Below, piece by piece: positions 50,916-53,363 of a DNA stretch of 64,000 nucleotides. The position numbers and the translations under genes are program-made. Source of the stretch: Demequina capsici (lineage in GTDB: Bacteria > Actinomycetota > Actinomycetes > Actinomycetales > Demequinaceae); the NCBI RefSeq assembly GCF_032102965.1, contig NZ_CP134880.1, positions 1,364,001-1,428,000 of the forward strand, written 5' to 3'. Position 1 is the first letter of the stretch. The number at the start of each line of letters is the position of its first letter. The notes below the pieces were generated by a model that had not been told where the DNA came from, ran no database searches, and saw only the letters and a list, made by a program, of their open reading frames with translations.

Positions 50916-51251
50916 TCAGCTCGCGCGCATGCTGCGCAGGTACTCCAGGCGCTCCTCCAGGAGCTCCTCGAGCTCAGGGATGGTGCGACGCTCGAGCAGC
51001 ATGTCCCAGTGCGTCCGCGCCGCCTTCTCCTCCTTGGCCTCGGGCTGATCGCCGTCCCTGAGGAGTGCGAGAGCGCCGCAATGGCACTCCCACGAGAGCG
51101 GCACATCAGCCTCGACGGAGAAGGGGAACGTCAGGATGTGCCCGTTGGGGCAGTCGTAGTGGACGTCACGACGAGCCGCGAGCTCCGCATGCTCGATTGA
51201 CTCCAGCGACTGGGTTCCCAGTCGCATGCCGCGTAGTGCTCGATCGGCCAT
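50916..51251 (-). CDS. rbpA: RNA polymerase-binding protein RbpA
   Basis: Actinobacterial transcription activator that binds RNA polymerase and the principal sigma factor and stabilises the open complex. 111 residues: the N-terminal tail (ALRGMRLGTQSLE), the beta-barrel core with YDCPNGH and WECHCG cysteines, the basic linker, and the C-terminal sigma-interaction helices (RTHWDMLLERRTIPELEELL). RBS GGGAGG ahead of the ATG. Confidence 0.96.
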   Translation of the reverse strand: MADRALRGMRLGTQSLESIEHAELAARRDVHYDCPNGHILTFPFSVEADVPLSWECHCGALALLRDGDQPEAKEEKAARTHWDMLLERRTIPELEELLEERLEYLRSMRAS

Positions 51252-51308
51252 GTCAGCCTCCCTCTCCAGCAGGCGGGGTGGTGCCTGCTCACCCCATCAA
51301 CGTCCGTG

Positions 51309-52343
51309 TCAGGGCCTTTGTTCCAATCTGCGCGCGGGTGCTCGGCACACTCCCATGGTGGCAGAAGCGGGGGTCCGAGGCGCGGCGACCGGGCGGCTCG
51401 AGCCGTGCTCGTCGGCCGTTGCGGCTGTGCCGCCGGAGATGGCGCGGGTCAGGGGTCCACTTGGCCCGGGTGCCGAGTCCGAAGATGCTGGACGCGCGCC
51501 CACGCGCGCCCTGAAGGACAGCGTCACGGAGCCCGCGATCACGGCCGCGCCTACGAGCTGCACCCACGTGAGGCGCTCGCCGAGCACCGCCCAGCCGAGC
51601 ATCACGGCGGTGAGGGGGGTCAAAAAGACGAGGATGCTCACCTCTCCGGCGGGCAGAGACTGGATGCCGCGGAACCACAGCAGCTGCGCGACGACGGTGC
51701 CTGCAAGTCCGATCCACGCGTAGCCCGCCAGGTTCGCCCCGGTGAGGCCGGCGGGCGCACCTTCGATGGCCAGCGCCCACGGCGCGAGCATCACGCCGCC
51801 CCAGATGAGCTGCCATGCGGTGAACGGGAGCAGCCCGACGGGGCGTCCCCAGCGTTTGATCAGCACGACCCCGGCAGCACTCGATGCGCCCGCGCCGACC
51901 GCCGCCAGCGCTCCCCAGGGATCGAGCTGAGCGTCAGGGCCGAGCACGAGCAATGCCACGCCGCCCAGTCCGAGGAACGCACCCCACAAGCGTCGTCGGC
52001 TCCACGCCTCATGCAGTACCACGGCCGCGAGGACGGCTACGGAGATGGGGTGGGTCGCGCTCAGGGTCGAGGCCACCCCGCCTGGCAGGCGGTAGGCGGA
52101 CACGAAGAGCAGCCCGAAGAACAACCCGATGTTGGCCGCGCCGAGCACGGCGGAGCGCCACCACCAACGACCGTGCGGAAGGGCAGGGGAGAGGGCGAGC
52201 AGGGCCACGCCTGCAGGCAGGGCTCGAACGGCCGCGGCGGTGAGCGGGCGGTCGGCGGGCAGCAGTGTCGCGGTGGCGAGGTAGGTGGTGCCCCAGAGTG
52301 CCGGCGCGATCGCTGTGACGACGAGCATGCGGGTGCGGTTCAT
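51309..52343 (-). CDS. EamA-family (DMT) transporter
   Basis: Ten-helix inner-membrane permease of the drug/metabolite transporter superfamily with two EamA repeats. 344 residues. The first repeat starts ALWGTTYLATATLL and the second ALAAVGAGASSAAGVVLIKRWG; LTPLTAVMLGWAVLGERLT is the classic end of the second repeat. Substrate unknown. A 60-residue Ala/Pro/Ser-rich cytoplasmic tail after the last helix is unusual. ATG 52343 is set by AGGGAG. Divergent from a MarR gene and sharing its double operator, so probably repressed by it; efflux of a toxic or signalling metabolite is a fair guess. Confidence 0.85.
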   Translation of the reverse strand: MNRTRMLVVTAIAPALWGTTYLATATLLPADRPLTAAAVRALPAGVALLALSPALPHGRWWWRSAVLGAANIGLFFGLLFVSAYRLPGGVASTLSATHPISVAVLAAVVLHEAWSRRRLWGAFLGLGGVALLVLGPDAQLDPWGALAAVGAGASSAAGVVLIKRWGRPVGLLPFTAWQLIWGGVMLAPWALAIEGAPAGLTGANLAGYAWIGLAGTVVAQLLWFRGIQSLPAGEVSILVFLTPLTAVMLGWAVLGERLTWVQLVGAAVIAGSVTLSFRARVGARPASSDSAPGPSGPLTRAISGGTAATADEHGSSRPVAAPRTPASATMGVCRAPARRLEQRP

Positions 52344-52357
52344 CGGTCTCCCTAGTG

Positions 52358-52398
52358 TCTTGATGTCAAGATAAATAGGGTGATACCTTGATGTCAAG
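52358..52398. promoter_or_regulatory. Double palindromic operator between EamA and MarR genes
   Basis: Two copies of the 12-bp palindrome CTTGATGTCAAG (52359-52370 and 52387-52398), centres 28 bp apart; the first extends to TCTTGA-TG-TCAAGA. On the minus strand a TTGACA (in the second copy) and TTATCT 17 bp away (next to the first) form a good promoter for the transporter. MarR binding would therefore block it. Confidence 0.8.
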
Positions 52399-52429
52399 AT
52401 AATTCTACGGCGCTGAAAGCGAGGCACTG

Positions 52430-52991: not shown

Positions 52992-53363
52992 TCACTCCTC
53001 CGGAGCGAGCACCTCGACCGCTGTACCCGTGCTGCCGTCGATCACTGAGCGGTCACCAAGGTTCTGGTCGAGCGTCAGATTGTCGACCGCCTCGTTGGTA
53101 GGACAGTCAAGCTTCGTGGTCCAGTCCAGACGGACGGTGACGGTGACCGTCGTGGCGCTCTCATCGACATGAACGTCGGCTTCGCGGCTGCAGTCGCCGA
53201 AGCTGACCTGAAGGACGTTCGACGAGGACTTGCCGTGCACCGTCGTGAGCGGCACCTCCGTGGTGCTGTCAGCGCGAGGCAGGAAGTACCACACGGCACC
53301 CGCGATGGCACCGATCACCACCAGGCCACCAAGCCGCCGCCACGACGCGTCAGTCATCACCAT
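52992..53363 (-). CDS. Membrane-anchored extracytoplasmic protein, unknown function
   Basis: 123 residues. A short basic N-terminus (TDASWRR) is followed by one membrane helix (about 11-28, LGGLVVIGAIAGAVWYFL) and an exported domain of about 90 residues. The domain has two cysteines (FGDCS, LDCPT) that could form a disulfide, and alternating hydrophobic residues suggesting beta strands. I do not recognise the family. A TATGCT -10 box (53397-53402, minus) and GAGGGGA support expression from ATG 53363. Confidence 0.65.
   Translation of the reverse strand: MVMTDASWRRLGGLVVIGAIAGAVWYFLPRADSTTEVPLTTVHGKSSSNVLQVSFGDCSREADVHVDESATTVTVTVRLDWTTKLDCPTNEAVDNLTLDQNLGDRSVIDGSTGTAVEVLAPEE

Follow-up and report, generated by a model that had tools for sequence, protein, structure and literature searches.

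The divergent eamA and marR genes in the window, the 64,000-nucleotide stretch of Demequina capsici DNA analysed here, very probably form an autorepressed efflux pair of the PecS/PecM type, which is a known kind of system. This assignment is made because two operator-like dyads between the genes are conserved and linked to the MarR homolog in related genomes, because the regulator carries the tryptophan and urate-pocket residues, and because a Klebsiella pneumoniae pair has the same layout and finds its best matches at this locus. The original prediction, of a tandem operator controlling a divergent transporter and regulator, is partly supported: its sequence observation was correct and its general idea right, and it had missed the known PecS/PecM arrangement.

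Table 1 Features of the eamA/marR locus, in window positions
Feature	Position	Strand	Remarks
rbpA	50916-51251		PF13397
GGAAC-N18-GTT element upstream of rbpA	51299-51324	-	overlaps last eamA codons
eamA, PecM-like EamA/DMT-family permease, 344 aa	51309-52343	-	PF00892, 1e-36; two EamA stretches
Operator dyad 1 (predicted), TGTCTTGATGTCAAGATA	52356-52373	.	1 mismatch to TATCTTGANNTCAAGATA
Candidate marR promoter, TTGATG-18-TACCTT	52360-52389	+	weak, tentative; 7/12 consensus matches
Predicted eamA promoter, TTGACA-18-TATCTT	52368-52397	-	10/12 consensus matches
Operator dyad 2 (predicted), TACCTTGATGTCAAGATA	52384-52401	.	1 mismatch to TATCTTGANNTCAAGATA
marR, PecS-like MarR-family repressor (predicted), 173 aa	52430-52951	+	PF01047, 5.3e-13

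Dyads, promoters and permease of the eamA/marR locus

The two identical 12-bp copies that had been noted between the genes, CTTGATGTCAAG, are present exactly, at 52359-52370 and 52387-52398. The 3,083,245-base genome contains no other exact copy, and a control pattern read backwards gave none. The 12-mer had been described as a palindrome repeated 28 bp apart. Dyad symmetry is indeed present but imperfect, with 5-bp arms (CTTGA/TCAAG) flanking TG, and the distance of 28 bp holds from start to start, the gap between the copies being 16 bp. The full exact repeat is 16 nt long (CTTGATGTCAAGATAA), and the conserved unit is an 18-bp dyad, TATCTTGA-NN-TCAAGATA, from which each window copy departs at 1 of 16 positions. 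Both dyads lie inside the 86-bp spacer. Dyad 1 is 12 bp from the eamA start codon and overlaps the predicted eamA -10 hexamer, while dyad 2 is 28 bp from the marR start codon and includes the predicted -35 hexamer.

The transporter promoter had been read as TTGACA-17-TTATCT; the site is the same and does overlap the dyads, but that reading was shifted by one base, the minus-strand hexamers being TTGACA (52397-52392) and TATCTT (52373-52368) with 18 bp between them. Shuffled sequences contained 0.1 +/- 0.3 sites as good as this one. The candidate marR promoter, which is absent from the output of the consensus scan, faces the eamA promoter head-on and overlaps it. Among the 23 eamA/marR pairs of the genus, 19 have as their best-scoring promoter on the eamA strand a combination of TTGAC- from dyad 2 with TATCTT from dyad 1 at a separation of 15-18 bp; the exceptions are loci L004, L011, L012 and L014, and L027 carries TAGTTT instead of TATCTT. 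If each dyad gives hexamers on both strands, two dyads at 25-28 bp would make two fully overlapping head-on promoters. It is possible, if rather doubtful, that operators and promoters are one and the same in this genus, in which case the repressor and two opposing polymerases would be mutually exclusive in a one-locus device. A dyad spacing fixed by the best promoter geometry was also considered, an idea weakened by the 11 loci with dyads at 25 bp, which leave a 15-bp promoter spacer.

The eamA product matched TIGR00950 with an E-value of 6.6e-51, below the curated cut-off of that model. The unusual Ala/Pro-rich tail ascribed to this permease is a real, modest enrichment (A+P 34% of the last 67 residues, versus 24% of the rest) but is not conserved: in relatives, the region past the last EamA domain can be anything between a few and about 90 residues long. 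A conserved tail function was rejected since both length and sequence differ among the tails of 24 EamA homologs, namely 23 of the genus, with that of the window, and one from another family; reading starts in this set were taken from blast matches or by hand, and some N-termini are not true starts. The GGAAC-N18-GTT element, presumably a promoter of the SigR/SigH type, has similar counterparts before rbpA in 6 of 13 loci scanned (L004, L005, L013, L015, L016 and L017). Because the element overlaps the last eamA codons and recurs in relatives, the alike tail ends of the window eamA and that of L005 may stem from the promoter rather than the protein. On the other side of the pair, a 123-aa protein encoded convergently with marR (52992-53363, minus strand) has no Pfam or NCBIfam match.

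The regulator among characterised MarR systems

The regulator belongs to the MarR winged-helix proteins (PF01047, 49.1 bits against a cut-off of 24.6). No NCBIfam model scored above its cut-off and none names PecS. The closest solved relatives were PDB entries 8ylh (3.1e-41) and 8ylf (3.2e-33), followed by 2fbk (1.4e-16). We take 2fbk to be HucR, and 8ylf may be MftR; a literature search with the codes 8ylf, 8ylh and 8ylm found no match. The urate pocket of HucR is assumed here to consist of W20, D73, R106 and R118. Residues D55, R88 and R100 of the window protein align with D73, R106 and R118, and W11, which falls outside the HucR alignment, was equated with W20 by motif only. W11, R88 and R100 are each conserved in 32/32 aligned proteins, and the position of D55 is Asp in 30 of the 32 and Glu in L026 and L028. 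The Asp and two Arg of this presumed pocket are common to HucR (Deinococcus) and MftR (Burkholderia), both sequence relatives, of which MftR has other targets.

The locus is alike in layout to the PecS/PecM systems of Dickeya dadantii, Agrobacterium fabrum, Vibrio vulnificus, K. pneumoniae and Streptomyces coelicolor, in that a MarR regulator with an N-terminal Trp is divergent from a pump with two EamA domains and two 18-bp dyads occupy the spacer. V. vulnificus PecS is described as a MarR protein with a Trp in its N-terminal helix, encoded divergently from the two-EamA-domain pump PecM; it binds two 18-bp spacer sites (TATCTTTATATTAAGATA), whose distances to the start codons are 29 and 6 bp, and is released by xanthine and urate (PMC6391409). 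Urate is also bound by PecS of K. pneumoniae and S. coelicolor according to the same paper (PMC6391409), and the same divergent, autorepressed layout is described for A. fabrum PecS/PecM (PMC12288460). The start-codon distances of 28 and 12 bp are similar to those in V. vulnificus. There, however, 57 bp are given between the dyad centres (PMC6391409), whereas the dyads here are only 28 bp apart and therefore both lie on one promoter stretch. The pair also differs from those of the listed hosts in belonging to an actinobacterial genus (probably Demequina) and in having no further sites found.

In a K. pneumoniae record, EamA and MarR genes are divergent, with TATCTTCACTTCAAGGTA and TATCTTGATATCAAGACA between them; this pair is presumably the PecS system of the literature. 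Its proteins are 44% (MarR) and 41% (EamA, over 279 aa) identical to those of the window, and both find their best match in the D. capsici genome, with much to spare, at the eamA/marR locus (6.9e-37 vs 3.9e-12 and 8.7e-55 vs 4.3e-5).

The repeat had further been proposed as a regulon motif, to be sought by a genome scan. When TATCTTGANNTCAAGATA was searched in the whole genome with up to 3 mismatches, only the two spacer sites were found, with the backwards-read control pattern giving one chance match per strand. As no further site appeared at this threshold, and as all but 1 of the 47 sites in the genus adjoin a MarR homolog, the regulon claim is not supported and a wider regulon was rejected. 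PecS of Dickeya is wide-acting; in this genome, in contrast, high-scoring sites occur nowhere but in the promoter region of the regulator itself. A literature search with the motif letters returned nothing on PecS or MarR as judged by title or abstract start, and its matches were probably primers.

Other members of the group were compared by their targets. TamR is a citrate/trans-aconitate sensor that represses aconitase, and HucR controls uricase (PMC5487221). The TamR/tam/acn system of Streptomyces represents a related MarR branch, and the target here is an EamA transporter instead: the neighbour is neither tam nor an aconitase gene, and no further dyad was found at up to 3 mismatches. Nor is the neighbour a divergent uricase gene as for HucR. 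A uricase search of the genome gave no match, so urate from the cell's own metabolism was set aside as ligand source; a molybdenum-hydroxylase domain (PF20256) was found in a 976-aa frame, which may or may not encode a xanthine dehydrogenase.

The dyad itself reaches beyond the genus. An order-wide scan covered 396 genomes, sampled evenly from a larger set. Exact tandem cores whose starts lie 22-48 bp from each other were found in 11 of them, 8 of the genus and 3 others, with none in the control. Near-identical tandem dyads precede an aconitase gene in one genome outside the genus (L087, G335) and lie between a methyltransferase gene and a MarR gene in another (L088, G173). Both arrangements resemble the TamR system, the methyltransferase being called Tam by resemblance only. 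Since dyads also occur at these loci, the motif by itself is not diagnostic of PecS; it appears to be common to a group of related regulators, and alone is no proof of PecS. These dyads, with the lack of a uricase match in the genome, speak for a regulator that falls elsewhere in the urate/TamR-like MarR group, be it TamR-like, MftR-like or lineage-specific, and that would sense a non-purine ligand and act on the pump in the same way. We consider such an origin unlikely, given that the neighbour is an EamA pump rather than tam or acn, that both K. pneumoniae proteins match best at the window locus, and that the genome's dyads (up to 3 mismatches) are all at eamA/marR.

Several more distant loci were also recorded. 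In the third of the genomes outside the genus with tandem cores (G098), dyads TGTCTTGACGTCAAGCTA lie 48 bp apart at 1498-1563 of L089. The homolog on an Agrobacterium plasmid (L091) has no adjacent EamA annotated and only a 4-mismatch site, and the Nonomuraea homolog (L092), in a record without annotation, has only 5-mismatch sites. On a Pseudomonas silvicola plasmid (L093, 1718-1772), a MarR gene and two dyads accompany a divergent 113-aa hypothetical gene, possibly a truncated pump.

Linkage of the dyads to the MarR homolog

MarR homologs were sought in 99 genomes, 97 of which had some MarR match, and the analysis covers the 30 loci returned: 29 of the same genus (probably Demequina; L003-L031, including the window, 45-100% identical) and one of another family (L032). 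A divergent eamA match adjoins marR in 23 of the 29 same-genus loci and is absent beside the close MarR homolog in 6. All 23 same-genus pairs examined carry two dyads, each with at most 4/16 mismatches. Among control windows, which overlap, come from the outer parts of loci and include some DNA fetched twice, 0/2,764 had a site when up to 3 mismatches were allowed. L032 has eamA, and the best site there has 5 mismatches. Start-to-start spacing of the dyads was 25 bp in 11 loci, 26 bp in 3, 27 bp in 1, 28 bp in 5, 30 bp in 1 and 45 bp in 2. The idea that repressor dimers touch each other at a constant helical phase was rejected, as spacings of 25-45 bp keep no phase.

A search of 44 genomes of the genus that allowed up to 2 mismatches gave 47 sites, spread over 27 genomes, with no match to the control pattern in any. 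Dyad genomes were matched by hand to the list of MarR homologs: the dyad is present in 27 of 29 genomes with a close homolog and in 0 of 15 without. Of the sites, 46 adjoin a MarR homolog, which for two sites in G028 is a fragmentary match located where a contig ends, and the sole exception is G035:C6:305796. The two genomes with a homolog and no site, G018 and G032, have AMTNRID instead of TTTHRI in the recognition-helix region, together with altered dyads such as TATTTCAATGTCAAGA, as expected if the MarR protein reads the dyad motif. The loci concerned are L030 in G018 and L029 in G032; in L029, the gene divergent from the related MarR gene encodes a glyoxalase-family protein.

A separate case is G021 (L013, 1992-2480), where marR and one perfect dyad are kept and no eamA match lies between marR and a gene for an RbpA-like protein, the latter recognised by eye in the plus-strand reading. 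This is a natural case of pump loss in which the regulator has stayed.

Taken at the level of sequence comparison, the 23/23 pairs and the 27/29 against 0/15 distribution support the predicted role of the dyads as operators of the adjacent MarR protein that overlap the transporter promoter. That they instead serve a different, unlinked regulator, with MarR a bystander, is very improbable, because the dyad tracks the MarR homolog and persists in G021 where eamA is gone. A chance repeat without function, conceivable only in that the core is merely a 12-mer, is refuted by conservation: across 3.08 Mb the 12-mer has just the two spacer copies, and the two dyads persist in all 23 same-genus pairs examined while the bases between them vary.

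Proposed switch and significance

In the PecS/PecM-type reading, a dimer of the PecS-like MarR protein would bind the two 18-bp dyads, which sit where the divergent promoters overlap, so that the eamA -35 falls under one dyad and its -10/start region under the other. Occupied dyads would exclude RNA polymerase and so keep expression of pump and regulator alike low. By analogy with characterised PecS proteins, whose ligand is urate or xanthine, a small molecule may free the repressor, and the EamA pump would then export a toxic or signalling metabolite.

Demequina was not mentioned among the best-ranked 10 of 1,386 matches of a PecS search in the open-licence literature. The analysis places a PecS/PecM-type switch in this genus (probably Demequina), where it is otherwise an ordinary new example of its kind, and provides a clean, predicted 18-bp operator that is usable for annotation.
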